Origin: Kingdonia uniflora
Lineage: Eukaryota > Streptophyta > Magnoliopsida > Ranunculales > Circaeasteraceae
DNA length: 64,000 nucleotides
Direction of reading: 5' to 3'
Assembly (NCBI GenBank): GCA_014058105.1
Contig: JACGCM010001242.1
Coordinates: forward strand, 682,001-746,000
Shown here piece by piece: positions 19,184 to 64,000 of this stretch (positions are counted from its first letter, which is position 1; the number at the start of each line of letters is the position of its first letter). Position numbers and translations under genes: made by a program. Below the pieces are notes generated by a model. It did not search any database and was not told the origin of the DNA. It saw only the letters and a program-made list of their open reading frames with translations.

Positions 19184-19264
19184 ACCTGCAATAGATGTTA
19201 TTCTTTGGTTTGACCCATTGAATTAGAAGAAGTTTGTGGGTGTAGAAGTAAGTATTATATGTGC

Positions 19265-25480: not shown

Positions 25481-26450
25481 GGCTATTCAGTATTGCATAT
25501 ATATATATAGGGGAAGGATATAGAAACACTCACAAACCAGACACTCAAGTTTGACATAATAGGAACCACTCATCTATATTAGATGAGTGGCTCTTAAAAT
25601 TGGTAATTTTCTATATAGGGAAATGAGGTGGAAAACTTATATTAAGTGACAGTCACATCGTATTTCCCTCTCTCTTAAAAACAAATAATTCAAATCACTT
25701 TAAATTACATCACTTTTCCTCCTGTCTTACTTTATCTTTGTTACACTCACCCTGTCTTTTTCTCTCTCTCCACCATTAGAGGCAAAACTGGAGGTTTTCG
25801 AATTAAATTACTCCTCTTTGTCCCTTTATATCTCCTGAACAATTTTTCTCTCATCTCGAAGTTTATCATTCGCACTACCATTAGATGCATAATTGGGCTT
25901 AAGAGCTCTGTAATTGGTTGTAATTGATTGGAAAACTGCAGTGGACATTAGTTCGAATGGCTATTCAGTGCTGCATATATATATATATATATATATATAG
26001 GGGAAGGATTTAGAGACATTCATTAACCAGACACAAAAGTCTGACTTAATAGGAACCACTCATCTTTATTAGATGAGTGACTCTTAAAATTAGTGATTTT
26101 CTATATAGGGAAATGAGGTGGAAAACTTATATTAGGTGGCAATCTCACCGTATTTCCCACAAACTTATAAAAAAAGAATTCAAATCACTCTAAATTATGT
26201 TACTCTTCCTCCTATCTTACTATATTTCTGTTACACTCACCCTGTCTCTCTGTCTCTCTTCACCATTAGAGGCAAAATTAAGGGTTTTCAAATTAAATTA
26301 CTCCTCTTTGTCCCTGTATATCTCTTGAATAGTTTCTTTCTCCATCTCAAAGCTTGTCAGTGGTACTACCATTAGATGCAAAATTGGGTTTAAGAGTTCT
26401 GTAATTGGTTGTTGTTGATTGGAGAACTGCAGTGGATATTAGCTCGTTGG
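25481..26450. repeat. Tandem duplication of the left terminal region of MULE1 with its flank
   Basis: Two copies of about 475 bp in direct orientation begin with the flank ATGGCTATTCAGT (25481 and 25957). Each then has a TA microsatellite, the element start GGGGAAGGAT (25510 and 26000) and the whole terminal repeat up to CTGCAGTGGA. Because short host-like flank is included, the duplication happened after insertion. Copies differ at scattered positions and in TA-run length, so it is not very recent. Confidence 0.85.
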
Positions 26451-26910
26451 GGCTTCCTTTAATTTGGGGGTTTCATACAAGAATCTAGGGTATTGCTGTT
26501 TTTACAAATTATTGTTGTTATTGGAGATTGTCATTGGATATTATTGCTGGTGATTATTATTGTTATTAGAGATTGTTGTTGGAGATTGTTTCATCTTCAA
26601 TAATTTATTGAAGATTGTTATTGTTTATGTCACAAACCAGGGATTTGACTGTCAATTCCACGGTATGTTTGTGGTGGTCAATCCTCAATTTATATTCATT
26701 AAGCTTTGACGAAACAATTGTAATCCTATGGATGTATTTGAAAAGAAATAAATATTGGTTCTTTTACTAAGTAAATGGTTTCGTATTGATATAACATTTT
26801 TTTTCTTCTGTATGCGACCAAATAACATACACTAGGGATCCCCATTATAGTTCATGTATGGTTGTCTCCCCAGTATATTTAATTGTCGAGATCAACAATT
26901 TTATAGAGTT

Positions 26911-27142
26911 AATATTGTCGGCACTCGACAATTATGCTTGTTTATGTGAAGACTTACATATATAATATTGTCGAGATCGATAATAATGTTAGTGTATGTG
27001 AATACTTGCATATATAATATTGTCAAGATCGACAATTATGTTGGTGTATGTGAGGACTTCCATATATAATATTGTCGAGATTGACAATTATGTTAGTGTA
27101 TGTTGGGACTTAGACATATAATATTGTCGAATACCCAACAAT
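26911..27142. repeat. 52-bp tandem array with palindrome ATTGTCGAGATCGACAAT (MULE1, five copies)
   Basis: Palindromic cores start at 26914, 26967, 27019, 27071 and 27123, a period of 52-53 bp; an isolated core lies at 26882. The spacer reads TATGTTAGTGTATGTGAGGA then CTTACATATATAAT. The array lies between the left terminal repeat and the start of the PMD gene, where a promoter or subterminal protein-binding region would be. The same unit recurs in MULE3. Confidence 0.88.
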
Positions 27143-27159
27143 TCATACATAATCAATCC

Positions 27160-30100
27160 TACCTACTAACATTTCCCTACTTGAATATGGTGTTCTTCCA
27201 TCTACAGATAGCACAATAAAAGAGAAACTTCCTCCTACAGGTTCCAATAAAATAAAGAAAAAGTTGGATAGAGCAGACCCGGAACACCCATACTTTAAAA
27301 AACTAAAAAGAAGGCCGAGAAAGAGAAAGACTATTAAGAAGAAAATAGTGGTCCCTCCAAACACTTTTGAACAGTTAGCAGCATTTTAAACTATGGATGA
27401 GGGCATTCGTTAACACAGTAGAGCTGATACAATGGCTAAAAGGGACAATATAGATAAAAACATGGTCAATGAAGATTATCTAGAACATAATATTGAAGAT
27501 GGTGACGAGCCTCAAGTAACTTTGGGTTCTGAAATTTAGAGTGAGTCTGCCTAAGCTGCTTTGGGAGCTCAACCAATACTCGGTGAATGTCGTAGCGGAC
27601 CCAATTCTGAGGTTAATATTACTAATAATGATACTTATGAGGGTAATTGTCAATGTAGTGATGGGGGATAATTGTGAAGGTGAAGAGGCTGCAAACAACA
27701 AAGATGTAGGACCTATTGATAATAGTTTGCTCAGAAGCTTCAAGTTCCATAGAGCGAGGTCGATCGCGCTAGGGAAGGTATACTATTTAATTATTATTGT
27801 TCTCATTATTGTTTGTTACAGTTTGGAAATTTAAATAGTTACATTTTCTTTGCTAATCTCATTTTTGTGACATAATTGATATTATTATTCAAAAAAATTC
27901 ATGCCTTCGTATTCACCATCACCCGTCAATGTGAGATCTTACAAGGGAACCACAAATTGTTAAACAATTAGTTATGTTGAAGGGTTTAGATGAAATTGGG
28001 GATATATCTTATAACTATTATAACTTCGGGTTTATTTCTGCTTTTGTCGAACGTTGGCTGCCGAAAACTAATAGTTTTCATTTCAAATGGGGAAAGATGA
28101 CTCCAACTTTTGATGATGTGAAGCTATTGATTGGGTTACTTGCAGATGGTGATGTTACGGTAATTGGTGGTACTTGGGGATTCCTCACCCTTGTTGATGT
28201 TTTCCAGAAGAATTTTTTACTAGATGCTGTTGACTTCAAAACTATGAAAGTTGGTGGTAAAGGAAATTTTTTGTCACTGTCTAAACTAAAAGAACATTTT
28301 GTATACAAATTTAAGAAGGTTATCAGTGATGGTACTACTACAGCAGCTAAGTAGAAGGGGTTAACAGCCATTTATGTTGCTCGTGCGTACATGTTATATA
28401 TTCTCAGTTTATTTTTATTTCCCACTAAAAAGGGCATGGATGTCAATGTACGGTATTTTGACTTGTTTGCCAAGGATAAATTGGCCAAAAAGTGGTCATG
28501 GGGATCAACAGTTCTTGTGCAAATATATCACAATCTCAGTACAGTATCTTAAGATGATGGGAGGCAATTGACATGCTATACCACGTTGCACGAGGTAATT
28601 CATGTAGTCTTTTACTACTGTTATATATATGTAGTAATTATTCCCATAGTTATCAGATAGAAAATGCCACTTGGATAACTTATTTCCAGATATGAACTAC
28701 ATCTTAGATAAGCAGTTTCTAATTGAATGCATTAGATGGTAGTATCTATGAGATCTTAGTCTACAGTATTGTCAACATATGCATGAACCTATTTACTAAT
28801 TTAATTTTGTTTATCTATATACATGAAGTCAGGGATCTTTGTACATTTCCCAAAGCTCCCTGGGATACCGAAGGAGCTGAATTCAAATAACTATGATAAC
28901 TATACTTGTTGGAAATGGGGTGGATCTGTAGTGGTCTGGCTTTACTAATGTTCAGGGAAGTATTAAACAATTATATAGTCGAGGATGTAAGTTGATTAGA
29001 TGTCTTCCCCGTCTTTATTTGATGTTTGCACAGTTTTTTCTTTAGATGTCTTCCCCGTCTCTTTCCCTGTTCTTAACATAATCCAGTTGGCTCATTTTTC
29101 ACTTAGGTTATATGGGACCCATATAGGGATAAAAGAGATAATGCACATGCGTTCAATGATATCCCCATTTTTTATGGAGCGTTATCAAGTCCATACCATG
29201 TTCAACCCTACTACCCAAATAGCGTTGTACGACAGTTTTCTCAGATTCAAGGCATCCCCACGAAGCCAAGATATCCAGAGGTGTCCAACCTATGTATCTC
29301 AGAAGAGCCGAGAAAATACAACCCTAAGTATGATTAGGTTAATTGCTTATCTAGAAAGAAGTGGAAGGAATGGGTATTAAAGAAGGATAAAAAGGGGCAG
29401 AGGGTACAAGAGGGCCTACAGTATATGCAGAGATATAATTGGAGTGGTTTGGCACTATCTCATGGATGAAGATCTATCCCATTACTACTGACTTGGCTGC
29501 ATATGATGATGTTGGGTTATCTAAAATTTATCGACGGAAAGAAGCTTGTGTTAATGAGGAGGGTGACATACCCGTAGACCAATGTCAAGATGTTGGTGAG
29601 CAATATGATGCACCAGTTAGTACATCTTATGAAAATTTGATTAACTTACTTGCCTTATAGGAGCCAAAAAAAAAATTTCTCAAATATTCTATACACTTTA
29701 TGCCCCACTTTTTTAGCTCAATGACCATGCCACTCTGTCTCCAAATGGGCATGATACCATGCAAGCATGGGGTAAATCTGACAGGTTGGATCAGCAAATA
29801 TCCTTCTTAAATGTCAAGCTTCAAAAGCTTAAGGAAGACAAAGATAAAGAGTCTGAAGCCAGCATAAAGCTAGCAAAGGTACTGAAAGAAAAGGTTAGTT
29901 ATAATTCCCACGATGCATATTGTTCACTATCTGTAACTTTATATAATGGGCCCCTTATATAATTGTTGATTATGAGAGATATCGACAACTATTTCATAAG
30001 ACAGTATGTCATTATTGTCGGGTAAGTCCCCATAATTGACAATAATCTAGTAAGACATGCTAGGAAATTATCAAATTTACAGTAAGTCCACAATTTAGAG

Positions 30101-31470
30101 CTTATTTTGGATTCCCTTGAAGTTTACATGTTTAGAATTAATTGGGTTCCAGAATAATAATTTCATCTTATATTAACCTCAGACAAGTGAATGTAATTTA
30201 TTGAGAGAAACCATTGAGCAAATAAAGGAGGACATGCAACTGAAGCGTGTACTTGGAATGCTTATTTTACTATTTATCCTAATATTGGAGTTCTTTTTAG
30301 CATAAGAAATTACCTAATGCTGAAGAGATGAAGAATACTTTTGAAGTAGATAACAATAAATGGGTATGACCTATTCCTAACTCTTGTACCTATGTCACCC
30401 CATGTAATTATTGATAAACTTTGTTGATGCACTTATTTGTAAAGCTACAATATCTAGTTGTTGCTGCAAAAGGTTTGGCATCAATTATTGAATAAGGCAC
30501 TTGCGAGTAAAGAGATGGCAGACATGGGGGACCTAACCTTTGAAAAACTTTTTAACCTGAATGAAAGATTCTTCATAATTGCACAGCAGGAACCCAATGG
30601 AGATTATCAAGAAGAGTTGGTCTTCACGGGGCTAACTCTTGAAAATGTCATTATTGCTAGGAGGGAGAATATGTCTAAGAAGAAGAAGTTATAAGAAGTT
30701 CTATTCCAATCGTGGTTGAAAAATCTTCTAGATATTTGTGGCATCGACGTGGATGATAATAATTCTTGTTTTAGGGTTTCGGCAATGATTCAGCATCAGA
30801 GTCAGCATAGATCCTAGGATTTAATGAAAACATTGAAGTCCTTTACCTCCAAAGACCCCGCATTTTGGAAAACTATCTTCAGTCAGACATTGGGTGTACA
30901 AATCAGTCCAGCAGGTGAGGAGGTGTATGAATCCTTGATGTGGGCATTTTTATTTGGTCATCAGCATGTGAAGTATAGGCATATGGGGCAATTACTATCC
31001 ACTTTCTATGAGAAGGTTGTGGTATTTATTAGCCACACTGAAGCATATACATTCTTACCCCTTTTTTGGGCACGGGGGAAAAACTCATTGTCGAATGAGG
31101 AGAGGTTCTAGAACCTTCTTAAAGAAACTAGTAAGTACTAGTGATTTGGTTTGGAGGCGGACAAACACTACATTCTTTTATTTCCAAGGTTTTATGCACT
31201 AATTTATCCAGCTTCTACTATTATCTTGGGTCATGCAAAATTAGATATTCTACCGGGGTTTCAAAAAAATGGTTGAAAATATATTTTGATGTAAAGACCA
31301 GGACCTTTAAGGCATTACTAAGAGAACACAAAGTAAAGGGTTATCAATTGAATGACTTGATTGTTGCTGGTTTGTGGCAGTACTCTTATCCTTTCATTTT
31401 TGGAAAACCATTGTATGCCCCTGTATGTATAGGGTTGCAACTTCTTATGATATATATTTCTTAGGTGGCC
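27160..31470 (+). pseudogene. PMD gene of MULE1: basic N-terminus, plant mobile domain, coiled coil, conserved C-terminal domain
   Basis: The first exon encodes a Lys/Arg-rich stretch (HPYFKKLKRRPRKRKTIKKK, about 27280-27340) and ends FKFHRARSIALGK at a GT donor at 27778. The plant mobile domain follows, open from 27974 to 28593 apart from two stops: FGFISAFVERWLPKTNSFHF, MTPTFDDVKLLIGL, then ARAYMLYILSLFLFPTKKG and WSWGSTVLVQIYHNL. Further exons hold HFPKLPGIPKEL (about 28850) and VIWDPYRDKRDNAHAF with YHVQPYYPN.VVRQF (about 29110-29250), the usual end of PMD proteins. A coiled coil lies at 29759-29890. The last domain (30450-31470, AQQEPNGDYQEELVFTGLTL, FISHTEAYTFLPLFWARGKN) matches the end of the MULE3 gene and, more weakly, of the MULE2 gene; I do not recognise it. 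PMDs are known from the silencing factors MAIN/MAIL1 and from transposons. Confidence 0.8.
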
Positions 31471-31639
31471 CTTAATGATTCATTTTTTGTCGACAAGTAT
31501 TTGTATATCCCATTTTTTGTAGTATACACAAGTGTATTGGTACACTATTATATATAAATCTTAATTCTGACTGTTAAATTCCATTAATATTGCCTGTGTA
31601 GAATATTTTAGCAGTGCTTTAATGATTCTCTACATGCTG

Positions 31640-31820
31640 CTATCTTCAGCTGAGAGTTAAATTGTCAATAATCGACAATCTAATATTTTATTTTATTTTT
31701 GTCGAGCAATGGATTAATGTTAACTGTCATTGTCGATGGCCGACAATATAGTTTAATTATTGTCGATTTAATGAAAAAGCTGACAATTTACTGCTACATA
31801 ACCGATAATTTACCTGCATA
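31640..31820. repeat. Cluster of palindrome copies between the convergent genes of MULE1
   Basis: Cores ATTGTCAATAATCGACAAT at 31661-31679 and ATTGTCGATGGCCGACAAT at 31729-31747, with half-sites such as TTGTCGA near 31699 and 31757. They lie in non-coding sequence just after the PMD gene. Confidence 0.7.
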
Positions 31821-32325
31821 ATGAAATACTACATGTGTTACATTGTCAGTAACGCTGAGGAATCTTCAAATTTATAGAGGAAACATAAAGCACAGTGCAT
31901 TGCTACTGTCCAATTTTCATTTTCAAAATCCAAATACAAAGTAAACTGAAAGTTGAAAAAACACAAAAGTCCCTCGTCAACAATAATAATAATATACATA
32001 TTTATTAAAGAAAGGAATTTGGAATGCAAGGCAAGTTCTTCTATTTTCCCAGATGTCGTGGTTGTCGGGATTCTCTTGCAGCGGCTAAACAGAACCCTAT
32101 TAGCATCTCCTACATGAAATTCATTCTAATTTTAAATACGGGATAAATACATGGTAAACACATTATGATTAATCACGAAAAATATGGCATTTATGCGCAG
32201 TATCGAATATGCACTAACTTGATTTCACTATCTTTATTTTGAGAAGTGGGCATGTTCATTTTTCGTGGTTGCCAATTACTCTACAACTTTTGCATGTTCT
32301 CTTCTTCATAACAGCCTCTTTCATA

Positions 32326-32340
32326 CCCCCCCCCCCCCCC
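32326..32340. repeat. C15 homopolymer in MULE1
   Basis: An uninterrupted run of 15 C between the convergent genes. Its length may be affected by sequencing error. Confidence 0.9.
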
Positions 32341-32469
32341 TTCTATCTCGCCCCTTTCTTGTGATCAGTCTTTGCTCATCCTTTAGTTTGAACCACAAGA
32401 GGGTTTAAAATGAAAGTTCCAGACATCTTAGAATCTACTAAAGAAGTTGAGATATTTGGTTGCGATGCA

Positions 32470-34330
32470 TCTATTTATGTGAAAGACTCATCGTAGTGGT
32501 CAAGGTAAGACTTTATCTCGTCTAGCTTCAAAACTGCAAATTCAAAACGTTCTTTAATCTTCGAGGCCCTTTTGAATAACTTTAATGCACGAAGGGATAG
32601 GTGGTTATGGCGTAAGGGATGTCGTAAGTTCTCTGCTGCTAAGTGACTTTCATCATATGACCATGAGAACTTGTTTGCACCAATCTTCCACCCTATCTTA
32701 ATGATAGCATCAAGTATTTTGATAATGTCATATTTCAAGAAAACCTTAAGAGGTGACAACACGGGAGTCCAACATACTCAAACAACTTGCATCTACAATT
32801 ACTAGTTAGCTTCTCTAAGTCTATATTTAGCTCGAATGACTCGGTACGACCACTATGGGACTTCACTGTAAGTTTTCAGAGGTTTTCTTCTACGTTTCTT
32901 TCTATTGCAAAGAAGTGAATGACCTGGTGCAAACTGATTTTCAAGTTTGTGGAACATTGTTCTTATGTATATCATTACAGTATCTTTGAGTAGTACTTGA
33001 TGAGGACCAACTTAATCATATCTGTATTCTGACACAAAGTCTTCTCTACTTTCCTTGTCATATACATCTAAAAGGCAGCCTCATACTTGGTCACAAAACT
33101 GTACAATCCAGTTATTATGGGCAACTAACCATTAAAGAAGTTGTTTATGGACTCACTTCATCCTGTAGTACTCATGCCCGCAAAGAAGGTTGACCTATTC
33201 TATAATGGTATCCATCTATGTCTAATATTAAAGATGCCTTACATCCAAAGGTTACCATCCAATTTATGTTTCTTTATTAGTTTCATCCACCTAATTTCAA
33301 AATGCATGGGCTCATATGTGTTGTGCATTATTGAATCAATCTCTTTTTTTAATGTAGATGGCCTGATAAACATGGTCGATTTTCTTGGGGAATTTATTTG
33401 TAATGTGTTATAGACACAATCGGTCTATGGTACTGGGGAAGACCTGTAAATAAATCAAAACTTGTAATAAATGGGTATTATCTAATATTGTCAATCACAA
33501 GCCAAAATCGACAATCGAATGTTGACACATGCTTCTACTCGAACATATATTGTCGACTATCTTGCCGACTAATCTAAATATTTTTGACCTAGATGGTAAA
33601 TCGACAATATACCTAGCATGTCAAATTCGAATTACTTATTTACTTTGGGCACAGCGACAGCCATAGATGTATCTTGATCAGTTATAATTGAAACAGGGTG
33701 TTTATAGTTCATTACCTTGAGCCAAGTATGGAACAACCATATAAATGTGTTTTCTTTCTCATTTCTTAGAAGAGCACATCCGTATTGAATCGCTTGGTAG
33801 TGGTTGTTGATCCCTGCAAACGGACCAAAGGGCATCTTGAAGACATTGGTCTAATACATAGTATCGAAGGTTATGACTTATCCAAATGCCTCGTATACAC
33901 ACCATGAATGTCCATCGATCCAAAAAAAATGACTATTTGGCCCTCCTCATCCAATTCAATATCAAAATAAAACATCGGATCTTAATTTTGTTTCTTCCTA
34001 AACCACTCCAACACGGCTTGTACATCTCCTCTGGCTAGTCATTCCTTATTTACTTTGGCGTTATGGTTATAACAATCCCATCTGTTGAAGATTTTATTTA
34101 GGAATAATGTTGGCACCTTGCACACCGAAATATTGTGCAGCTCAAGTGTTGTTGCTAGGTTTTTTGCTGCTTTTAAAAAAATTTGTTAACCTTCATACAA
34201 TGATGACTCTGTGGAAATACAAGTTTATGATTATGGATATCCATGAAACTTATGATAACATATTTGCCTATTTTGGCATTCTAATTAATGTTCATCGTTG
34301 CTTTATACCCACACTTATCAGATGATCTTT
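32470..34330 (-). pseudogene. FAR1-type MULE transposase of MULE1
   Basis: From high to low coordinates: the end of a FAR1-type DNA-binding domain (KCGYKATMNIN, then FMDIHNHKLVFP, about 34320-34210), a decayed linker, and the DDE core with FGPFAGINNHYQAIQYGCAL and KHPVSIITDQDTSMAVAVPK, which holds the second catalytic Asp (33835-33640). An intron of about 200 bp follows (about 33645-33444). The next exon reads VFPSTIDRLCL.HITNKFP, then the region with the third acidic residue, now heavily decayed. A SWIM-type segment and the C-terminus (SRALKLFKRASKIKERFEFA-like, 32762-32475) end it. The intron position is the same in MULE2 and MULE3. FAR1/FHY3 transcription factors derive from this transposase family. 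Confidence 0.88.
33485..33608. repeat. Palindrome half-site cluster inside the transposase intron of MULE1
   Basis: The intron contains ATTGTCAATC...AATCGACAAT (33487-33515), ATATTGTCGAC at 33548 and ATCGACAATATA at 33600, degenerate copies of the 18-bp palindrome. The adjacent exons contain none. Confidence 0.6.
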
Positions 34331-35349
34331 TGTTCTCATCTCTTTTAATAGTCTCTGCATCTATCCCAAGGTTTTTCCTTAAAAAACCATTGTTCATGCA
34401 ATAGAAGTGGGCTCTACCTATATCCTCAGATCTCAGACGCTTAGAAAATTATGTATCTTGGTAGAAAAATCCTGCCCTCTTCCATAACGTTCGTACCATA
34501 GACATGCGTCCTCAACAGTATCAAAATGTTAATACTCATATGGGGCTTTCGCCAACAACGGATTAATAATACGTTCATTTTAAAATCTTTCTGGGGACTC
34601 GTCACGAATAACTTTCATCTAATTATACTCTACAAAGTTTTCCTTATAGATGTTAATCTCACTGACAAGGTCAGACATAAAAAAAGAGATTGTGAGTTGA
34701 AAGTAATTTAAAATATATCACAAATTTTAACGATTCAAGACAAACACATGTTCATTTCATTTCAAAAGCCTTCATTACATCACATGCTACAAAGACCGAA
34801 TACAAAATAAACAATCACCCAAAAAAAACTCATTGTTTAGGTAAAGAGGAAACATTAACCCTCCTTGCACAACACAAACTTCTAACACCTTAACTGTCAT
34901 ATCCAAAAATCTAGTTATATTCACATTCTTGCCAGCTATATTGACCCCTTTGCCACCCATCAGAAAAATTGTTAAAAGAATTGTATTCAGGCCTGTTACA
35001 CTGTGAATTATAATATGATAAATGTTGCTCCGCCCATAATACATTTTCTAGACGTCTAAATTCTAATTCAGCTTGTTACAGTACTGGATCAATTTCTTCG
35101 TGAGTTAGCGAAGAAATTGAGATGTGGACACTATCGTAACTCTCTACCTCATCCATGGAAAAACACACACAAATTAATTTATGGGCCCAGTTCAAAAAAC
35201 TGAACCCCATTGTCAAGCCTCTAAAATAATAGAGCATGTCTTAATAGAAGTGAAATGCTATGTAATTGTCATACCTTAACCAAGCATGCTTAAAATGTAC
35301 GGGGTAACCTAAAAGAAGCTGAGAACATAAGTTAAATCATATGTAATTA

Positions 35350-35590
35350 TCGACCACTCACACACAATCGACAATACATTGTCGATCATTTAGTTCTTCG
35401 ACAAAAGGAGAACTCTGCTTTTGTCGAATCCACCGTAATTGACAATACGAACCGCCATATTATCGACCTAACTAATGCATGTTTACAATCCAAACTGAGA
35501 TGTTCACTTCTAGTGTGAGGTACAGGACTGATAAAATATCGATCGATAATTTTATTGAAGTATTATTGTCAACACTCGATAATTTTTAGT
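35350..35590. repeat. Subterminal palindrome cluster on the transposase side of MULE1
   Basis: Degenerate copies include ATCGACAATACATTGTCGAT at about 35377-35396, TTTGTCGAATCC with AATTGACAAT at about 35418-35444, ATCGATCGATAAT near 35538 and ATTGTCAACACTCGATAAT at about 35567-35585. They lie between the transposase start and the right terminal repeat and mirror the array at the other end of the element. Confidence 0.6.
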
Positions 35591-36089
35591 GTTTCACATT
35601 TTAAGTTTAATTGCTCCATTTCAATGCACAATACTAACCAAAATTAGATTTCACAGGAGATGACTCACCGTAGTTGTAAAGCCCATAATTATCTATTATG
35701 TCTCTAAATTCCAGTAATCTCCTGACTATAAATTACCACTACATCAGTATAATCCCTAAATTCTAGAGTTTTGTACCCCTAAAAATTTCACATAATTCCA
35801 TACAAAAAGGGAAACTATCTCTAAATTTGAGAGAGATGAGGATGAGAAAATACTTGTAGAAAGACCAAGAATAATAACAACAACAAAAACCCAACAAATT
35901 TTTAGTGTGATATCTGACTGAGAGGGAATAAGAGTCTTCTGCTACTCCCTTCAATTACTGTGGGTATCGCAGTTCTCAGGACAAAATAATTTAGCCTCTA
36001 TTGGAAAAAATTGCAAGAAAGAGATAAAGAATGGTATGGGGGAGAGAAAGAGATAGATATGAAAGGGGGAGTGAGATAATTTATGGGAT

Positions 36090-36280
36090 TGATTTCAAAT
36101 TGTTTAAGTGAAGAGAAAGGAAGAGTGCAACGTGGCTGTCATCTAATATAAGTTTTCTACCTTATTTCCCAATATATCAAATCACCAATTTTAAGAGCCA
36201 CTCATCTAATAGAAATAAGTGGTTCCTATTGAGTGAGACTTTAGTGTCAGGTTTGTGAGTATCTCTAAATCCTCTCTCTC
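36090..36280 (-). repeat. Right terminal inverted repeat of MULE1
   Basis: The reverse complement matches the left terminal repeats at 25510 and 26000: GGATTTAGAGATACTCACAA, then TAGGAACCACT, the hairpin (36198-36222) and AAAACTTATATTAGATGACA. Similarity fades toward 35900. It is followed by a TA run. Confidence 0.82.
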
Positions 36281-36312
36281 TCATAATATATATATATATC
36301 AATAGACAGTCT

Positions 36313-36420
36313 AGATGAGAGGTATTAGAAGCATGATGTGGCGAGTGGTGACGTGGTATTTTAAAATCAATTTTTCAAATATGGCAGTGATATTTTGGCA
36401 GCTCTCTCTCATAATCTCAT
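36313..36420 (+). repeat. Left terminal inverted repeat of MULE2
   Basis: AGATGAGAGGTATTAGAAGC, then ATGATGTGGCGAGTGGTGAC and GTGGTATTTTA, pairs with the right end at 49146-49015. The right copy has about 70 extra bases near its tip, including a second GGAAGCATC, so the ends are unequal in length. Confidence 0.68.
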
Positions 36421-37657
36421 TCATCAAGACAACTCTCTCTCTTTTTCTCTCATTCATCAAGACAACTTTCTCTCTCCCTCTCTCTCTTTATCTCTCTCTT
36501 ACCAAATGATTCCTCACCCTCTCTCACTACAAAACTAATTTAGCTTGCCTTCTGTCACCCACATTATTTTTCGTAAGGTTTGTTTGTTTATTTTAACCCT
36601 GCAAAATTAAAAGGTATGATTCATTATAGTTTACAATAGTTTCTAGCCTAGAGTACCAATTTCTTATAATGGTTGTATTAGTTTTTGATTCCCCATATAT
36701 CAAATTTGTAATGGTTTATGACCTAGAGTAACAATTTCTTGCATCATTTGTAGTTTTGGATAGGTTAATTCGAAACCATAAGGATTTGGGGAAACTTGTA
36801 ATTGTAGTTATAGTTTGTAATGACTGTTTTCAAAAACACAGAATATGATTTGCATTTTGTAGTTTCAAAAATATTTTATCTAAAGACGTAATTTACGGTT
36901 GAATACATTATTATTATTATTTTTAATTTCTAGAAAGAGTATGATGTAGATAAGTACTTTACAATTTTGATGGTGCCACTGGGTATAAGTTTCAGTTATA
37001 GATCATCCCCTATTGCTTGTACTATTTAGTGTGTATAGTTTGGGTATAATGGTCCTTTCGGCTTATCTTTTCCGAAACCAATTACTTAAGAATACTTTTT
37101 CAAAACTAGATAGTTTCGAAAAGGAATTTCAAAACTTGGTGAGCATAAACTCAACGGTAACTTTCATTGATGAGGAGGAAGGTGTAAGTGTTGTTGTTCT
37201 CAGAAGTGTTGTATTTGATTATTTAGGAGAAACGCCTACAATTCCAGTAAGTTGGATTCTTTCTTCAAGAAGTTTTGAATCATATATTTTGTTTACCTTA
37301 TCCTGAGTTGTATGTTTGACTTTCGAAAGTGTCTGAACCAAAAGAAAAGAAGGCAAGGAGTTTTGAATTTATCAATTCGATTTCGAAAACTATAAAACGA
37401 TATTGTATTTTTTTTTCTTACCCTTCAGACCCCTTATAAGTAGAGTAGTTTATTTATAAGTGATGTCCTAACTGCAAACTTAAATTCATGATATAAGGGT
37501 GGTGAGATATCGGAGACATGGCAGTTTTAATGGATTGCACTGTTGGAGTGGTTGTTGCCTTCATTAAGTTTTTCCATCGCTTTATCCATGGATCGTGGGC
37601 GGTAGTGATTAAAGCCCCCTCCCTCCAAACCAACTCTGAAACAGATTGGGAGTAAAA
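36421..37657. other. Leader region of MULE2 before the transposase gene
   Basis: TC-rich microsatellite (36400-36500) followed by AT-rich sequence with scattered motif-2 half-sites (GTTTCRGTA type, for example near 37069 and 37126). An open frame at 37013-37306 has no recognisable similarity. Confidence 0.35.
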
Positions 37658-37822
37658 ATGATTTTTGCAATTTCTGAAGAAGACATACGATATGACTCGA
37701 AAGAGGAACGCCGACTAACTCTGTTCGAGGAAGAAATTATGTGGGGCACCAGGCAACCCAACTACAATGCTTATAATAGTTCAGACGATTACGAATCAGA
37801 CGATTTGTATGATAGATCTTGA
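37658..37822 (+). CDS. Small acidic ORF upstream of the MULE2 transposase, possibly its first exon
   Basis: A 54-residue frame starts MIFAISEEDIRYDSKEERRL and ends DDYESDDLYDRS. It is strongly acidic. No family recognised. It lies 0.7 kb upstream of the clear transposase similarity on the same strand, so it may be an N-terminal exon. Confidence 0.3.
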   Translation: MIFAISEEDIRYDSKEERRLTLFEEEIMWGTRQPNYNAYNSSDDYESDDLYDRS

Positions 37823-38530
37823 TATGACTACGAACATTAGGCTCTTTAAATAATTGTAATAATATCTTTAAACTATTATAATTTGCTTGGTTATGCATAG
37901 ATATCTTATTTTAATTCTGGGATTTTCTTTTATTACATTCAGCCATTTATTCCGACTGAAAGATACTAGAACCACTTTGATTGAGTCTTGATTCTCTTTG
38001 AACGAAACTACGTTGTTTCGCTTAGGTAAAGTGAAAGTAACTGTCGTTTGGAACTTCCCTACCAAAACTCATTTAGAAATCGTACTCCTCATTATGTTTG
38101 AGCTGTTTAACATGAGAAAAAATCATGAGATATTAACTTGAACTAATCATATTGCATGTTATTTTATAGGATGGGAAATTCAGATGTAGACATGTACTCC
38201 CCTGTTATTGGGGAAGGATCATCAGTCCCAAACTTCCAAGGCACGCACGTCTAAGTGGCTGGTGTGCATACTTTTGAAGGCTTTGAAGTTACTTCCAAAG
38301 CTTCGGTAGACCCCCTCGAAGTGACTATTTCATATGTTGGGAAGCAATTATATCCATTTTTGCTACCGAGTTATATTATTTATATTATGGGAAAAGTATA
38401 GGTTTCTCGATAAAGAAGAGAACTTTGAAGAAGTTGCCTCATTTGAATTTTATTAGTAGGGTGTATTTCACCTGTATATCAAGGTGTTTCGAAGAAGAAC
38501 AAGGGCAAAGAACTCGATACTAATCAGGAG

Positions 38531-40960: not shown

Positions 40961-40979
40961 ACCCGAGTCAAGAAGTAAG

Positions 40980-42110: not shown

Positions 42111-42111
42111 G

Positions 42112-42130
42112 CCCCCCCCCCCCCCCCCCC
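42112..42130. repeat. C19 homopolymer in MULE2
   Basis: An uninterrupted run of 19 C just downstream of the 3' end of the PMD gene. Its length may be unreliable. Confidence 0.9.
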
Positions 42131-49014: not shown

Positions 49015-49146
49015 TTTCAATAGTAAAATGCCATGTCATACTCGCCACGTCATGCTTCCTTGGCCACATCATTTGCCTTGTTGGCAAGCTTTGCCAACAA
49101 CTCTCAACTAGACCTTTCATTTTGCCAAATGGAAGCATCCTCATCT
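49015..49146 (-). repeat. Right terminal inverted repeat of MULE2
   Basis: Its reverse complement contains GGAAGCATGACGTGGCGAGT and ATGACATGGCATTTTA, matching the left end at 36328. A small palindrome, TTGGCAAGCTTTGCCAA, lies at 49081-49097. A TA microsatellite follows the tip. Confidence 0.68.
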
Positions 49147-56400: not shown

Positions 56401-56764
56401 GTATTTGTGGTAATTCTTGAAAATGATTGCATTATGTGGAACTTTGTGATCGTATGATGAACTTAAAAAAATTCTATACAATATTAGTATTTCTTTATTC
56501 TTTATTCACAAGTTTATTAGCTTCATAAAAGATCTTGGACTAGAAAAAAAATTGTGTGCAGTCCATGTAGCAAATCTAAATCCATGGAAGCCATATGATA
56601 AAGTTTGATATGGACAGTTGATTAACACTCATAATAGAAGTTCTATTATAGAACACATGAAATATTATGTATTTTGTGAAACTTTTTGAAGCATTCTAAT
56701 GGCTTGAGCTACGTGGTAACATCTCCAAGTGCCTTAGTATTTTTAAGCACATCATGTATGTTAA
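53481..56764. other. AT-rich intergenic stretch without recognisable genes
   Basis: Only short open frames without similarity are present. A phrase at about 55200-55270, read SFRFTLQRSFCCLSNEEAMY, is open briefly but not assigned. No terminal repeats, arrays or RNA genes are seen. Confidence 0.35.
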
Positions 56765-57060
56765 TGGGAAAGGATATAGAGACACTCAAGTCGAAAACAC
56801 CCAAGTCTCACTCAACCACAACCACTCATCTAATAGAGATGAGTGGCTCACAAAATTTGGTGATTTCCTATAAGGGAAATGAGGTAGAAAAATGTTGGGT
56901 CCTACCTGCCCCACTCTCTTTAGCTGGCAGACATTTCACTCTCTCACTCTTAGAAATTTCAAATTCGAACAACCCATCACTCATATCACTCAATTCTCTC
57001 TCTCTCTCATATTACACACTCTTGTTTACCATTTCTGCCTTTAGAGGTAAAATTTCAATC
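56765..57060 (+). repeat. Left terminal inverted repeat of MULE3
   Basis: Matches 26000-26280 and 25510-25790 in order: the GGGAAAGGATATAGAGACA tip, AACCACTCATC, the hairpin, GATTTCCTATAAGGGAAATG, then a TC-rich tract and TTTAGAGGTAAAATTT (compare ATTAGAGGCAAAATTA in MULE1). Confidence 0.85.
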
Positions 57061-57363
57061 TCAAAAGAGAAGCAATTTTTCCATTAGAGGTAAAATTTTA
57101 TCACTCTAAAGAACTCCGACACCCTTGCTGATAGTACACTTACTCGACAGGTACTTTATGACCCTTACTCGATAGTAGTACACTTGGATGTTGTGAAATT
57201 GTTAGAAGAATGGTATTCCACCACACTTAATCCCTGTGAAATTTGTTAGAAGAATATAATTTCCTGTGCAATTTGTCTTTGATTGATTACTTGAAGGTGG
57301 GTCCCAAGAGAGTAATGCGTAAATCGGTAATTTTATTTGCATAACACTGAACTGAGACTAAAT

Positions 57364-57535
57364 AATTGTCGGATTCGACCATATTAGTAGTGCGATCCTC
57401 ACATACACTACTATAATTGTTGAATTCGACAATATTATATATGACTGTTGGGGACACACTAACTGAATTGTCGAACTCGACAATTTTACATATGAATGTT
57501 TGAGGCACAGTAACTAAATTGTTGAACTCAACAAT
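57364..57535. repeat. 52-bp palindrome array upstream of the MULE3 transposase (four copies)
   Basis: Cores start at 57364 (ATTGTCGGATTCGACCAT), 57416 (ATTGTTGAATTCGACAAT), 57467 (ATTGTCGAACTCGACAAT) and 57518 (ATTGTTGAACTCAACAAT), a period of 51-52 bp. The array ends 23 bp before the first ATG of the transposase frame. The spacer corresponds to that of the MULE1 array in reverse complement, in keeping with the opposite orientation of the elements. Confidence 0.9.
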
Positions 57536-57558
57536 ATTACTGTACAGAGTAAGCGGCG

Positions 57559-59700
57559 ATGGTGAAGACGAGGTCTCAGAGTCGTCGGGAGGCTACTTCT
57601 CGCCGTATTAAGCAGTTGTATGACAAACTGGTGTTGCGTTATTTTTGCTTAGTAAATCTAAATGGTCCACCATTGCCACCGCGTGAGGCGAGCTACAAAG
57701 AAATGGGTGAGGCTGAGGTAGCATTGTGGAGGGAGGTTGTTGTATGAAATAGCTTTTCAACAAAAAACCTTGGGAATCCAAAGAGTAGCGACGTAGCTAG
57801 CAACAGAAGATCATCTGATAAGTGTGAGTGTAAAGCAACGATGAACATAAATTGGAATGCCAAAATAGACAAATATGTTGTTACAAGTTTCATGGATATC
57901 CATAACCATAAACTCATATCTCCATAGAATCAGCATCGGATGAAGGTTAACAGATTCTTTCCTGAAGCAGCAAAAAACTTTACTGCGGCATTTGAGCTCC
58001 ACAATATTCCGGTCAACAAGATCCCAGCATTATTCTCAGATAGAAACTTTAGCAAACGGGATTGTTACAACCACAACGCCAAAGTAAATAAGGAATGTCT
58101 AGTCAGAGGAGATGCACAAACCGTATTGGAGTAGTTTAGGAAGAAACAAACTGCAGATCCGATGTTTATTTTGACATAGAATTAGATGAGGAGGACCGAG
58201 CAATTTTTTTTTTTGGATCGATAGACGTTCAAGGTGCGCATATGAGGCATTTGGAGATGTCGTCACCTTTGATACTACGTATCGGACGAATGTGTACAAG
58301 ATACCATTTTCTCCATTTGCAGGGATCAACAACCACTACCAAACAATTCAATACAAATGTGTTCTACTAAGAATTGAGCAAAAAACATATTTGTATGGTT
58401 GTTCCATACTTGACTGAAGGCAATGAACAACAAACAGCCTGCTTCAATTATCACCGATCAAGATGCAGCTATGGCCACGACTATTCCCAAGGTAAAAAGG
58501 TACTTTGACACTTGTTACTCCAGTTACAGTTGTTAACTAGAGTATATTGTAGATTTTACCTTACCAATATTGTCGAACACTTGTTACTCCAGTTACAGTT
58601 GTTAAATTGTCGAATTCGACAATATTTGCTAGCATAACTCCAATCCAATTATACTACTAAATTGTCTAATTTGACAATATCATATAATATTTATAGACGC
58701 TTTCATTCTAAGTTCTGGTTTATTTTCAAGTCTTCCCCAACACCAGATATCGATTTTTTCTGTGGCACATTATAAACAAATTTCCTAAGAAAATCTACCA
58801 TATTTATCGGGAACCATCTATATTCAAAGAATATATCAATTCGATAATGCACAATACATATGGGGTTGTAGAGTTTGAAACCAAGTGGATAGACCTAATG
58901 AATAAACATAAATTGGATGAAAACGTTTAAATGCAAGGAATCATCAATATTAGACAAAGATGGATACCGTTATGGAATAGGTCAACCTTCTTTGCAGGGA
59001 AGATCAGTACAGGACGGAGTGAGTCGACAAACAGCTTCTTTAATGGTTGGTTGCTAATAACAACTAGGATGTACAGTTTTGTGACCAAGTATGAGGCTTC
59101 CCTTTTAAAGCTATATGAGCGATAAAGTGCATAAGATTTTGCATTAGAACATAGATATCGTCAAGTTGGTCATCATCAAGCTCTACTGAAAGATGTTGTA
59201 AATATTTACACCAAAATAATGTTCCACAAACTTTAGGACCAGTTTGGCCAGGTTGTTCACTTTGTTGTAATAGAAAGACACGTAGAAGGCAACGTTCAAA
59301 AACTTAGAGTGAAGTCCCATAGTGATCGTACCGAGTCATTTGAGTTAGAAATAGACTTAGAGAAGCTAACTGGCAATTATGGATATAAGTTGTTTAAGTA
59401 TGTTAGACTCCCATGTTGTCATCTTCTGAAGGTTTTCTCAAAATACAACATTCTCAAAATACCAGAGGCTTTTATTATGGCAAGGTGGACGATTGGTACA
59501 AACAAGTTTTCAAGGTCGTATGATGAAAGTCAGCTATAAGGAGATAACTTATGATATGCCTTATGCCATAGCCACCTATCCCTTTATGCATCAAACTTAT
59601 TCGAGAAGGCCTCGAAGATGAAAGAAAGTTTTGATTTTGTGGTTTTGAAGCTAGACGAGCTTGAGTCTTACCTTCAAAACTACGATGAGTCTTTAACATA
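57559..59700 (+). pseudogene. FAR1-type MULE transposase of MULE3
   Basis: An N-terminal frame starts MVKTRSQSRREATSRRIKQL at 57559, probably exon 1. The DNA-binding domain follows (KCECKATMNINWNAKIDKY, FMDIHNHKLISP), then a well kept linker (57940-58134, FSDRNFSKRDCYNHNAKV). The DDE core has FGDVVTFDTTYRTNVYK and PASIITDQDAAMATTIPK. An intron (58491 to about 58735) sits at the same codon as in MULE1 and MULE2 and carries two palindromes. Exon 2 has FLWHIINKFPKKIYHIY, IRQRWIPLWNR and GRSESTNSFFNGWLL with the catalytic Glu. In the SWIM finger NYGYKLFKYVRLPCCHLLK the first two Cys are Tyr, while the C.H pair is kept. The C-terminus (LFEKASKMKESFDFVVLKLD) is at 59600-59700, and the zinc-knuckle region near 59870 has lost residues. 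Confidence 0.92.
58606..58678. repeat. Two palindrome copies inside the MULE3 transposase intron
   Basis: ATTGTCGAATTCGACAAT at 58606-58623 is a perfect 18-bp palindrome; ATTGTCTAATTTGACAAT at 58661-58678 follows 55 bp later. A half-site, ATTGTCGAACAC, lies at 58569. Confidence 0.88.
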
Positions 59701-60384
59701 GATAGATGCATCGTAGCAAAACATCTCAACTTCTATCACAGATTCTCTGGTGTCTGGAACTATGATTTTAAGCCCTCTCGTTGTTTAAACAAAAGGATGG
59801 GCGAAGAGTAATCACAGGAAAGGGGCAAGATGAAAGGGGGGATGGAAGAGGCCGTTATGAAGAAGAAGATAACCTGCAAAAATTATGGAGTACTCAGCAA
59901 CCGTGACAAATGGACAAGCCCACTTCTCAAAAGGATAATAGCATAATCAAGTAAGTACATATTCGATACTATGCATAAACGGCATATTCTCCATGATTTT
60001 TCTATAATGTATTCCATTCTATATTTATGCCATATTTACAATAATATATTTCATGTATGAGACAGCAATGGGGAATCAGTTCAGCCATTGTAATCGATTC
60101 CGACAACTACAACATCTAGGAAAACAGAAGGAGTTCACATGTATTAACTAATAAATATGTATTTGATTATTATTGAGATATTCGTATGTTGATTCAACAT
60201 TATGTTTGCTTTGTAATTAGAATTTAGGACAATATCAATGCAGTATTTCATTGAGACAATAGCAATGAATTATTTGGAGTTTAAGGATTGTGTGGCTTTA
60301 TGCACTCTCTATGAATTTGTAGATTATCAAAAATACTGTATTAAATTGTCGGGTTATGTAATAGATCCTCTATAATTTAACTAA

Positions 60385-60560
60385 ATTGTCAATTTTGATA
60401 ATATTATATACCCATAACTCTAATTACATTTTGTAATATTGTCGGGTTCGACAATATTATAAATGCATAATTCGAAATACACTACAAAAATTGTCAAAAT
60501 CGATAATATTATACAATGTAAGTAATCACATACACTACAAGTATTGTCAAAATCGACAAT
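60385..60560. repeat. 52-bp palindrome array between the convergent genes of MULE3 (four copies)
   Basis: Cores start at 60385, 60438 (ATTGTCGGGTTCGACAAT), 60490 and 60543 (ATTGTCAAAATCGACAAT), a period of 52-53 bp. A partial core lies at about 60344. Confidence 0.9.
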
Positions 60561-61791
60561 ATTTTATTTTTTTGATCCAAGTGCACTGTTAAAATATTCT
60601 TTAGAGCCAATATTTACAAACTTTGAATAGGATGACCTAACATAAATGTATATACTACAAAAATAAATTAACAAGAGGTACTTTTATAAAAAATTATATA
60701 CTGTGATATACAAACAGTGAGCTAACAGAACTGTCATGTACAAAAAATGGATAACCATGTAGGGATACTACCAATAAACAGTGAGTTAACATAACTGTGA
60801 TATACAAACATTTGGTCGACGAACCTATTTGATTGTCGATAAACCAACAGCCACCATGTCATTAACTTAATACCCCTTTACATTGTGCTCTCTAAGTAAT
60901 GCTTTGAAGGTCCTTACCTTCACATTAAAATACCTAGTCAGTTGTTCTTTCACAAAAGCCAGAAAAATTTCTAGATTTGCATTACCATATAAAAGAGAAG
61001 AAACTGGAGGTATTGATGCATCAAACCTTGGAAACAAGCAAACGTAATGGTTGTTCGCCCCCAAACCAAACCACCAGTACTTACTAGTATCCATAAGAAG
61101 GTTTTGGAACCTCTCCTCATTTGAAGTAGTATTTATTTTACGTGCCCAAAAGAGGGGTAAGAATGTATATGCTTCAGTGTGGCTAATAAAGGCCACAACC
61201 ATCTCATAGTAAGTAGATAGTAAATGCACCATATGCTAATACTCCATATGTTAATGACCATAACAACATGCCTGCAGCAGAATTTGATACGCATTCTCAC
61301 CATCTGGAGTAAATTGTATACCCAATGTTTGGCTGAAGATACTCTTCCAGAATGTGGGGTCCTTGTAGAGAAAGGTCTTCAATGATTTTATTATATCTGG
61401 AAATCTATGTTGGCTCTGGTGCTGAATCGCAGTGGTAACCCTAAAACTAGAATTGTAATCACTAATTTTGACGCCACGAACATTTATAAGATATTTCATC
61501 CACGGTTGGAATAAAATTTATTGTATCTTCTTCTTCTTAGCCATTTTCTCCCTCCTAGCAATGATAACATTTTCAAGGGTTACCGCCGTAAAAACCAAGT
61601 CTTCTTGATAATCTCCCTTGGGTCCTTGTTGTGCTATTGTAAAGAATATTTCGTTCTGCTCAAAAAGTTCTTCAAAGGTTGGATCCCCTATGTCTCCCAT
61701 CCCTTTACTTGCGAGTGCCTTCTTCAATGTTTGACTCCAAACCTCCTGCAACAAGAACTAATATTTGAACAAACAATAATATTATAGCAAT

Positions 61792-61943
61792 ATTATCGAT
61801 TTTGACAATATTATATATGCATAATTCCAATTACATTGCTATAATTGTCAACTCGACAATAATATATTGTGCAAGTGTACATATATATTATCAATATTGT
61901 CGAATTTGACAATATGCAGTTGGTAATCGTCGAATTCGACAAT
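61792..61943. repeat. 52-bp palindrome array in an intron of the MULE3 PMD gene (three to four copies)
   Basis: Cores start at 61792 (ATTATCGATTTTGACAAT), 61844, 61896 (ATTGTCGAATTTGACAAT) and 61926 (ATCGTCGAATTCGACAAT). The first three are 52 bp apart; the last is closer, at 30 bp. Confidence 0.9.
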
Positions 61944-62129
61944 TATGACTTTAAACCATGCATTAAATAGAGTAATCTTAAATAGGTACAAGAGTTAGGA
62001 ATAGGTCATACGCATTCAATGTTATCTACATCCAAAGTCTTCTTCCTCTCTTCAGAATTAACTAGTTTGTTATGCTAAAAAAAACTCCAATATTAGGATA
62101 AAGACACTTGGTACATGTACATTACCTAT

Positions 62130-62248
62130 ATTGTCGAGTTCGATAATATTTTTCTTGCACAACTCCAAATAAACTTCTTAATTGTCAAATTTGACAATAT
62201 TTAATTTCAATAACATGATTTGGAAGCCATATTCCCGAATTTGACAAT
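62130..62248. repeat. Palindrome array in a second intron of the MULE3 PMD gene (three copies)
   Basis: Cores start at 62130 (ATTGTCGAGTTCGATAAT), 62181 (ATTGTCAAATTTGACAAT) and 62231 (ATTCCCGAATTTGACAAT), 50-51 bp apart. The sequence around them (CATTACACAGAGCAATCTCA) repeats that of the array at 61792-61943, so the block was duplicated. Confidence 0.88.
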
Positions 62249-63473
62249 TCCCACTTCAAACCATGCATTACACAGAGCAATCTCAAATAGGTACAAGAGT
62301 TAGAATAGGAGATACCCATTCACTATTATTTACTTCCAAAGAATTCATCCCCTCTTCAGCATTAACCAACTTCTTACGCTGAAAAAATAGCCAACATTAG
62401 GATAAACAGTGAAATCAGCATTCCATAAAATTAAGAAGGACGAGGGGGGGAGTTTACGAGATGGTTTGTTTACTCCATACATCTCGTTGCTTTTTTCTTA
62501 CACTTGGATGCCCAGTTCATTATCTATTCCAAAGACATAAAGGAGATGAGCTATATAACTCCAGTACATAAAAACTAACATTATGCTGGATGCAGATAGG
62601 TATAACTGACCTTTTCTTTGAGGGCCTCTCTTAGGTCTATATTGCCTTTAGACTCATTCTCTTTATCTTCCTTGAGCTTTTGAAGCTGGTCATTTAGTAC
62701 TGTGATTTGCAGATCGAAACTGCCAGATCCACCCCTTATTGGCATGGTATCATGGGCATTTGGAGATAGACTAGCATACTCATGATGCTGCAGAAGTGGT
62801 AATTCAAGTAAAAAAAATATTAGAGAATATAAATTTTGAAGTAAAAATAATATAAGCGAAGTAAGATAAAAATAGTTGTAATATGTACTAACCGATACAT
62901 CATATTGTTCAGCAATATCTTCATATTGGTGTATGGGGGTATCACCATGCTCATTGACACTGGCTTCCTACCTTTGATGAATTCCAACATCATCATCTGC
63001 AGCAAGGTCAACAGTAATGGGACATATCATAGTCTACGAGACAGAGGCAAACCACTCCAAGTATCCCTCTGTACATACTAGAGGCCCCTCTCGTACCCTC
63101 CGTCCCCTATCAGCCTTCTTCAAAATGAACTTCTTCCACTTTTGGGCAGAGAAGCAATCAACCCACACATACTTAGGGTTGAATTTCCTCTGATCTTTTG
63201 CGTTCCATAGGTTGGAAACCTCTGTCAACAGTCACTTTACGGGGATACCTTGTTCCCGATTAAACTGCCGCACAACCCTATTTGGGTAGTAGGGTTGAAC
63301 ATGATTTGGACTTGCTAATGCACCATAAATAAAGTGACCTCCTTGAATGCATGTGCAGAATCCTTTTTATCTCTGTATGGGTCCCATATAACCTACGTGA
63401 AAAATGAATTAAATGTATTATGTACCATTAAGTTGAATAATTTTTCCAGTAGGCCAGAGAAAAATTTAACAAC

Positions 63474-63716
63474 ATTGCCGAATTCGACAATATTATAGTG
63501 GACTGGTAGTTATTGAGATAGAATATTATCGATTTCGACAATTTACCATGTTCATTTCAACAAATTTGCATATGCACAACTAAAGAAACCTGAATAATTG
63601 GTCAAATCGACAATATTATATGTATAATAGTAGATGTACGTAGTCAATATTGTCGAATTTGACAATTATTCCATTTTCTTTAGTTGTGAATATGCAACAT
63701 TGTCGAAATCGACAAT
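63474..63716. repeat. Palindrome array in a third intron of the MULE3 PMD gene (five copies)
   Basis: Cores start at 63474 (ATTGCCGAATTCGACAAT), 63525 (ATTATCGATTTCGACAAT), 63597 (ATTGGTCAAATCGACAAT), 63649 (ATTGTCGAATTTGACAAT) and 63699 (ATTGTCGAAATCGACAAT), mostly 50-52 bp apart. Confidence 0.9.
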
Positions 63717-64000
63717 ATTGAAGCAGTATAATCTACTAACTCCAAGTGCAATATGATACAGGACTGTAGCAGGGCAATAAACTTATATTCACCAATTTGT
63801 AGTTGTCCAATACCTCCCTAAACTTGAGAAAGTTGTACCACCGTATCTATCCGTAACAGATACATCCCATTTCCAACAAGTACAGTGCTCGCATGCATCA
63901 GAGTCCATCTCCTTGGGGATCCCATCAAGCTTTGAGAAATGTGCAAAGATCTACGACTACATGTATATAGATAAACAAAATAAAATTAGTAGAGGTTCAA

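Follow-up and report, generated by a model that had tools for sequence, protein, structure and literature searches.

In a 64,000-nucleotide stretch of the Kingdonia uniflora genome (positions 682,001 to 746,000 of contig JACGCM010001242.1, assembly GCA_014058105.1; hereafter the window), we found three Mutator-like elements (MULEs) of one layout, in which a FAR1/MULE-type transposase gene converges on a gene that encodes a plant mobile domain (PMD) and a coiled coil, as determined from Pfam matches and open reading frames (ORFs). The elements belong to two families (A and B), each with its own short motif in non-coding DNA, and further loci in the same genome add two more families (C and U). 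By analogy with the VANC proteins of Arabidopsis VANDAL elements, we lean modestly towards a reading in which the PMD protein recognises the motif of its own family and acts as a VANC-type anti-silencing factor.

Three MULEs with a common gene plan

The common plan of the original prediction, a transposase antisense to a PMD gene, is backed by Pfam matches in MULE1, MULE2 and MULE3. By sequence, the hallmarks of PMD-bearing MULEs are present: a transposase domain, terminal inverted repeats (TIRs) with a 9 bp target site duplication (TSD), and an antisense PMD gene that comprises the PMD, a coiled coil (judged by eye) and a C-terminal part. Stops interrupt the genes in all three window copies. 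The elements and their genes are as follows.

25510..36284, no strand: MULE1, diverged member of family A; TIRs 75–84% identical, end sequences read, ends approximate
27860..31458, + strand: MULE1 PMD/coiled-coil gene, broken by stops (Pfam PMD 5.8e-15 and 2.4e-10; coding mask from family A and C ORFs)
32173..34699, − strand: MULE1 transposase gene, broken (Pfam MULE 9.9e-14; coding mask)
about 36310..49150, no strand: MULE2, family B; ends set by eye, approximate
38311..40958, + strand: MULE2 transposase (FAR1 8.9e-5 in 38447–38710, under the Pfam cut-off)
42212..47635, − strand: MULE2 PMD/coiled-coil gene (extent from ORFs; coding mask covers part of it)
56757..56765: MULE3 TSD TATGTTAAT, perfect, 9 bp; second copy at 66288–66296, beyond the window
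56766..66287, no strand: MULE3, family A; in-window part 56766..64000
57553..59797, + strand: MULE3 transposase, broken (ORFs; similarity to MULE1 and MULE2 transposase blocks)
60870..64000, − strand: in-window portion of the MULE3 PMD gene, with the coiled coil and C-terminus (annotated product GIB67_008142, P0028)

MULE3 was completed from a further stretch of the same contig (L023), in which the top-scoring portion of its PMD lies just beyond the window (64022–64522); the coiled-coil and C-terminal portions lie within it. TIRs are present in five family-A copies, MULE1 and the family C locus L029, and blastn found none in MULE2. The FAR1 domain scores 7.8e-16 in a family-A copy and 6.6e-17 in family C, with the weak 8.9e-5 of MULE2 noted above; the MULE2 transposase also has a weak Pfam MULE score (0.28), yet it can be aligned to that of family C. 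The MULE2 exon at 45659–45961 matches PMD at 1.1e-12 and, below the cut-off, DUF1985 at 1.2e-4. The left end of MULE1 is tandemly duplicated (25497–25796 and 25987–26286, 490 bp apart, 86% identical).

Family A carries palindrome arrays outside its exons

The half-site ATTGTCGA occurs in both MULE1 and MULE3, in MULE3 chiefly as ATTGTCGA-NN-TCGACAAT palindromes. Allowing three mismatches or fewer, the palindrome ATTGTCGAATTCGACAAT has 23 sites in the window, four in MULE1 (26882–27088) and 19 in MULE3 (57365–63716), with none elsewhere and none in 100 shuffles of the window. Both elements had been described as filled with palindromes; MULE1 has few intact ones but carries 15 exact half-sites, against 0.17 expected. 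Across the 1.0 Gb genome there are 1846 exact family-A 18-mer palindromes and no matches to the reversed-pattern control, against a rough expectation of about 0.04 from window base composition. The motif clusters in the two window copies are listed below.

26882..27130: MULE1 array upstream of the PMD gene, 52 bp unit
29962..30094: MULE1 half-sites (one mismatch or fewer), PMD-gene intron
31661..31766: MULE1 half-sites between the convergent genes
33487..33608: MULE1 half-sites, transposase intron
35346..35583: MULE1 half-sites upstream of the transposase
57365..57535: MULE3 array upstream of the transposase, 51 bp unit, 4 palindromes
58606..58678: MULE3 array, transposase intron, 2 palindromes
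60438..60560: MULE3 array between the convergent genes, 3 palindromes
61792..62248: MULE3 arrays, PMD-gene introns, 6 palindromes
63474..63716: MULE3 array, PMD-gene intron, 4 palindromes

Ten array-bearing places were selected, non-randomly, from the first 100 or so listed palindrome places (C11, represented by the 3 kb stretch L004, was left out), and nine of them proved to be copies of the family-A element. Four full-length copies of 11–12 kb hold 29–34 palindromes each and MULE3 holds 26. In the four full-length copies the palindromes form seven clusters, of which one is upstream of the PMD gene, three are in PMD-gene introns, one is between the genes, one is in the transposase intron and one is upstream of the transposase; six of the seven are found in MULE3. 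Short introns, TIRs and an unmasked stretch of about 1.1 kb (4.05–5.15 kb of copy e967), which probably consists in part of coiled-coil exons, lack palindromes. The tenth place is a satellite at positions 1–20000 of the 89 kb contig C116 (L021, L022), made of units of about 800 bp from the family-A PMD-upstream region, with 147 palindromes (three mismatches or fewer) in these 20 kb.

The claim that the motifs lie outside exons stood up in both window families. The coding mask of ten family-A copies spans 42,590 of 101,141 bp and contains none of their 262 palindromes, although these sites are non-independent as the copies are related and the sites tandem; in MULE2 the mask (3427 of 12,841 bp) contains one of 34 half-sites. 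Three of the 15 exact MULE1 half-sites are masked: two are part of the 5′ array, and the third, at 31087, belongs to the last exon of the PMD gene. A first mask, from tblastx of MULE1 against the copies, was dropped because the arrays themselves aligned, and exon-block proteins were used instead.

Motif arms in family A are about as conserved as coding DNA. In a ten-copy alignment with 34 palindromes in the column consensus (16 arm positions each), between-copy identity was 0.883 for motif arms, 0.787 for adjacent spacer, 0.828 for other non-coding DNA and 0.877 for coding DNA. At 30 of the 34 palindromes identity is higher than in the flanks of that site; the difference averages 0.095, above the maximum of 20,000 control-window resamplings (0.052), although misaligned repeat units, which can lower flank identity, may inflate this contrast. 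The column-consensus test replaced an earlier count in which sites were picked by their match in one copy, a choice biased toward the motif. The two centre letters of the palindrome mirror each other in their variation (A/G/T predominate at position 9 and T/C/A at position 10), as would be expected of a symmetric, dimeric reader.

MULE2 carries a different, weaker motif

MULE2 had been said to be filled with GTTTCRGTA half-sites, a claim that failed as worded: there are only four exact sites against 0.83 expected, a count reached in 2 of 100 shuffles, and the string is a decayed form of AGTTTCGG. De novo word counting in MULE2 leads to TAGTTTCG/AGTTTCGG, and the better half-site is AGTTTCGG(TA). 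At one mismatch or fewer AGTTTCGG occurs 34 times against 7.8 in shuffles (z 9.3):

36752..48794: MULE2 AGTTTCGG half-sites (one mismatch or fewer), dispersed, n = 34

The same half-site is enriched in two copies picked on transposase similarity alone, L028 (16 against 6.3, z 3.7) and L038 (20 against 4.1, z 7.3). Inverted AGTTTCGG pairs are few, with four at one spacing and three exact pairs genome-wide (control 0). The MULE2 motif is dispersed, weaker than those of the other families and not in arrays. By sequence, family B looks old: among 150 scored matches besides MULE2 (1831 candidates), 22 are at least 62% identical and 21 of these carry stops, an age that fits the decay of a CpG-bearing motif.

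Two further families with their own arrangements

Family C, a third PMD family, is represented by loci L029 and L030, which were picked by transposase similarity and an open frame (522 and 483 aa). Their PMD genes score 1.6e-17 and 8.4e-35 in Pfam, and the family C transposase matches MULE at 2.2e-5 (just under the cut-off) and SWIM at 2.5e-4. These loci hold 60 and 67 ATTGTCGA half-sites, against 10.0 and 10.2 expected, with just one family-A palindrome each. Most form everted pairs, TCGACAAT-NN-ATTGTCGA, together with inverted pairs about 20 bp apart, at a period of 30–31 bp. The everted site TTCGACAAT-NN-ATTGTCGAA has 277 exact occurrences genome-wide and its backwards control none. The coding mask contains 2 of 64 exact half-sites, which sit close to the same exon edge, and, with one mismatch or fewer allowed, 9 of 127.

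Family U comprises three loci (L035, L036 and L037) that were selected because they match DUF1985 and have long open frames. The DUF1985 scores (2.3e-7, 8.9e-8 and 2.8e-7) are all slightly under the Pfam cut-off, and both loci scanned for it contain an Ulp1 protease domain (2.3e-12 and 1e-8). TCATTTGT occurs 135, 154 and 110 times against 24.5–27.7 expected, mostly in TCATTTGTTA arrays of 21 bp period that form two blocks facing each other, downstream of the Ulp1 frame. These loci represent a VANC-domain family in Kingdonia with its own, different motif.

Motifs are family-specific, with spacings that suggest helical phase

A cross table of 10 element loci, five control stretches, three motifs and two reversed motifs gave own-motif z scores of 14.1 and 22.2 in family A, 9.3, 3.7 and 7.3 in B, 15.1 and 17.8 in C, and 21.9, 25.7 and 18.3 in U. 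Cross-terms lie between −1.9 and 1.0, apart from ATTGTCGA in two of the three U loci. In the control stretches ATTGTCGA is mildly raised in one flank (z 2.7), and the maxima are 0.9 for the B motif, 1.8 for the U motif and 2.3 for the reversed motifs. The prediction that the window families do not share their motifs was upheld, with ATTGTCGA at chance level in MULE2 (12 against 9.4) and AGTTTCGG seen once in MULE1 and three times in MULE3 (4.9 expected in each).

Half-site spacing is coherent at about 10.2–10.7 bp in all but MULE2, which is suggestive of helical phasing. A scan of periods from 6 to 20 bp placed the best period at 10.4 bp in family A, 10.2 in C, 10.5 in MULE1 and 10.3–10.4 in the C116 satellite, and the U loci are coherent at 10.45–10.65 bp, values that none of 1000 jittered null sets reached. 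Null sets with jittered gaps reached the observed phase in 0–5 of 2000 cases for families A and C, and in 34 of 2000 (exact sites) or 1 of 2000 (one mismatch or fewer) for MULE1; this null jitters each gap while tandem units are interdependent, so these counts are too favourable. Our claim of helical phase relies on how units of different length agree: about 51.5, 30.5 and 21 bp lie near five, three and two helical turns.

The PMD protein as candidate reader and its relation to DUF1985

By sequence, divergence is faster in the PMD gene than in the transposase. Identity by aligned segment between families C and A is 48–49% in the PMD exon, 41–49% in the C-terminal exon of the PMD gene and 55–73% in the transposase; between C and B the values are 37–45%, 26–34% and 35–49%, respectively.

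The PMD and DUF1985 appear to be remotely homologous. A two-sequence DUF1985 profile run against 1220 ORFs ranked the MULE PMDs (2.4e-4 to 0.015) immediately below its own members and one other DUF1985 locus, and in the same ORFs a MULE PMD profile retrieved the DUF1985 ORF of L034 at 1.2e-8 and that of L031 at 0.008. Alignment of the two with hhalign gave a probability of 71%, and L031, L032 and L034 match both families in Pfam, partly under the cut-off. The PMD-like ORF at 1429–1761 (− strand) of L032, likely part of a Gypsy element (by eye), scores about equally for PMD (1.3e-6) and DUF1985 (1.1e-5), both under the cut-off, and may connect the two Pfam families. DUF287 was seen in none of the ORFs scanned with Pfam. 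The domain of the MULE accessory protein scores as PMD, so that the protein is at most a relative and not a VANC.

Comparison with known systems

In Arabidopsis, VANC proteins, of which DUF1985 is a domain (PMC5735166), bind tandem repeats in the non-coding DNA of their own VANDALs, YAGTATTAY for VANC21 and AGTTGTCC/AGTTGTAC for VANC6, and induce methylation loss there, according to the portions of PMC5735166 and PMC10398659 consulted. As the available part of Hosaka 2017 (PMC5735166) describes VANDAL21 and VANDAL6, the Kingdonia elements resemble them as MULEs with an accessory gene and family-specific tandem motifs in introns, intergenic and upstream DNA, in that the motif differs between related families, and in an accessory protein that diverges faster than the transposase; the apparent remote homology of PMD and DUF1985 is a further likeness. 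Unlike VANC, the Kingdonia accessory domain scores as PMD and the motif is a palindrome or half-site pair of other sequence; unlike VANDAL21 and VANDAL6, families A and C have long TIRs.

Antisense PMD genes are known in many plant MULEs, including the MUDR, MUDRAVI2 and MDR groups (Dupeyron 2019, PMC6446971, accessible portion), with which the Kingdonia elements share a transposase and an often antisense PMD gene, a 9 bp TSD and, in family C, a SWIM finger. The MULE PMD-C elements in the consulted sections of Ikeda 2017 (PMC5418596) are PMD-transposase fusions, unlike the separate convergent genes seen here. The portions of these two papers at hand report no motif arrays in PMD-bearing MULEs. 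A keyword literature search, which left most subscription papers uncovered, returned no paper joining DUF1985 and the plant mobile domain and, in the parts of the papers available, no report of motif arrays in PMD elements. MAIN and MAIL1 likewise have a plant mobile domain, a link to the silencing of transposable elements and a motif in dependent promoters (PMC7156037, in the part consulted), but they differ in being host genes that promote silencing. Relative to VANC systems, the new features would be a PMD in place of DUF1985 and palindromic or phased half-site arrays, in elements whose anatomy, by sequence, is of VANC type.

Proposed explanation and alternatives

Under the reading that we favour, each MULE family would be a private regulatory circuit. 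The PMD protein, probably as a dimer or oligomer formed through the coiled coil, would occupy adjacent half-sites along a single face of the helix, recognise copies of its own family only, and locally remove or block DNA methylation or other silencing, which would allow expression of the transposase and of the PMD gene; new families would emerge through joint change of protein and motif. The analogy with VANC drawn in the original prediction gains from the family-specific non-coding motifs, exon avoidance, conservation in family A, faster PMD divergence and remote DUF1985 homology, and loses from the weaker MULE2 motif. A broader proposal, which we put forward tentatively as doubtful, is that PMD and DUF1985 form one superfamily of element-encoded, sequence-specific anti-silencers that act on phased arrays, in which half-site and geometry (inverted, everted or direct; 51, 30 or 21 bp) would constitute a private address and MAIN/MAIL proteins would be tamed relatives.

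Several observations weigh against these proposals. In an open 10-mer scan ten non-MULE control stretches score from 2e-13 to 9e-4, a span that takes in both MULE2 (2e-6) and L028 (6e-8, for another word), and the MULE2 half-sites lack helical phase, the observed value being reached by 1077 of 2000 null sets. ATTGTCGA reaches z 3.3 in each of two U loci and is above chance in the non-MULE part of the window at 1–25400 (41 against 20.7, z 4.9). Families A and C have a common half-site despite PMD exons that are about 48% identical, and, as divergence affects transposase and PMD in parallel, comparing families does not separate the candidate readers. Blastx with the family A–C transposases and PMDs gave no match in the three U loci, which may or may not be MULEs. 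Support for the PMD–DUF1985 homology is thin: the other scanned MULE PMD ORFs (MULE1, L016, L019, L023, L029 and L030) have no DUF1985 match, and two of them match DUF7745 weakly. AlphaFold models of the PMD-gene C-terminus (pLDDT 44) and the PMD (pLDDT 63), with Foldseek, were uninformative, and sequence searches of the PDB gave nothing usable. The missing transposase match in the U loci and the restriction of the DUF1985 match to one MULE PMD lower our confidence in both the favoured and the superfamily proposals. The broken window copies, by their sequence, look long silenced, and CpG-type transitions form the largest class of off-centre changes in 297 family-A sites (142 of 354), from which these copies were probably methylated in the past; such changes say nothing for present protection. 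CpG decay as a sign of protection found no support, as, relative to A/T columns, the CpGs of the motif decay at roughly the rate seen in other places.

TnpA of the CACTA element Spm/En is an element-encoded protein with many short subterminal sites and is linked to demethylation. A transposase that reads the motif through its FAR1 zinc-finger domain, for assembly or autoregulation like TnpA in maize Spm, is an unlikely explanation here, even though families A and C have this DNA-binding domain and the transposase sequence, too, differs between families A/C and B. TnpA and the Kingdonia MULEs have many short sites in common, but TnpA sites are subterminal and not in introns, whereas the Kingdonia arrays lie in introns and the middle of the element, remote from the ends. 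Ten family-A termini of 350 bp from five copies (3.5 kb) contain one half-site at one mismatch or fewer, against 5.9–7.4 per kb in whole elements, and such motif-poor termini make the transposase less likely as reader. We give somewhat less credence to arrays that serve silencing or host regulation, with a host factor, or PMD action of the MAIN/MAIL1 kind, silencing or insulating the element. That idea draws on MAIN and MAIL1 being PMD proteins required for silencing of transposable elements (PMC5418596, in its accessible part) and on the promoter motif common to genes that require them (PMC7156037, likewise); a transposable element would, however, be expected to lose silencing sites, not to multiply and conserve them, and the motif differences track the family, not the host.

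Passive minisatellites, in which a 51 or 30 bp unit spreads by slippage and gene conversion without any reader and exons stay clean through coding constraint, seem comparably improbable to silencing arrays. The arrays are indeed tandem, spacer sequence is common to MULE3 units of different clusters (by eye), and one array region has turned into the C116 satellite. Nevertheless, the arms are more conserved than their own spacers (subject to the inflation from misaligned units mentioned above), families A and C keep the half-site but arrange it in arrays of different geometry, and families B and U have other motifs. We regard action of the palindromes at the level of RNA or DNA structure (hairpins, splicing or replication) as barely credible: the family-A motif is a perfect palindrome, but the everted pairs of C and the direct repeats of U have no common secondary structure with it, and some arrays lie upstream of genes.

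Anti-silencing by MULE-borne PMDs has hitherto been speculation, voiced in Ikeda et al. (2017; PMC5418596) and again in PMC8616336, as far as the consulted portions of each go, and the conserved, phased, family-specific arrays make the idea cheaply testable, since the protein either binds them or does not. If a PMD protein does read its own motif, VANC-type address systems would extend beyond Arabidopsis VANDALs to the PMD-MULEs of a eudicot whose lineage diverged early, distant kinship of VANC with MAIN and MAIL1, which act in silencing, would be suggested, and these elements would be a source of new sequence-specific epigenome tools.

Other features of the window

Between MULE2 and MULE3, at about 52800–53500, lies a fragment resembling an O-fucosyltransferase-like host gene (by eye). 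Tandem arrays with units of 196 bp and 155 bp are found at 14749–15551 and 19341–20048, respectively, amid retrotransposon-like fragments.

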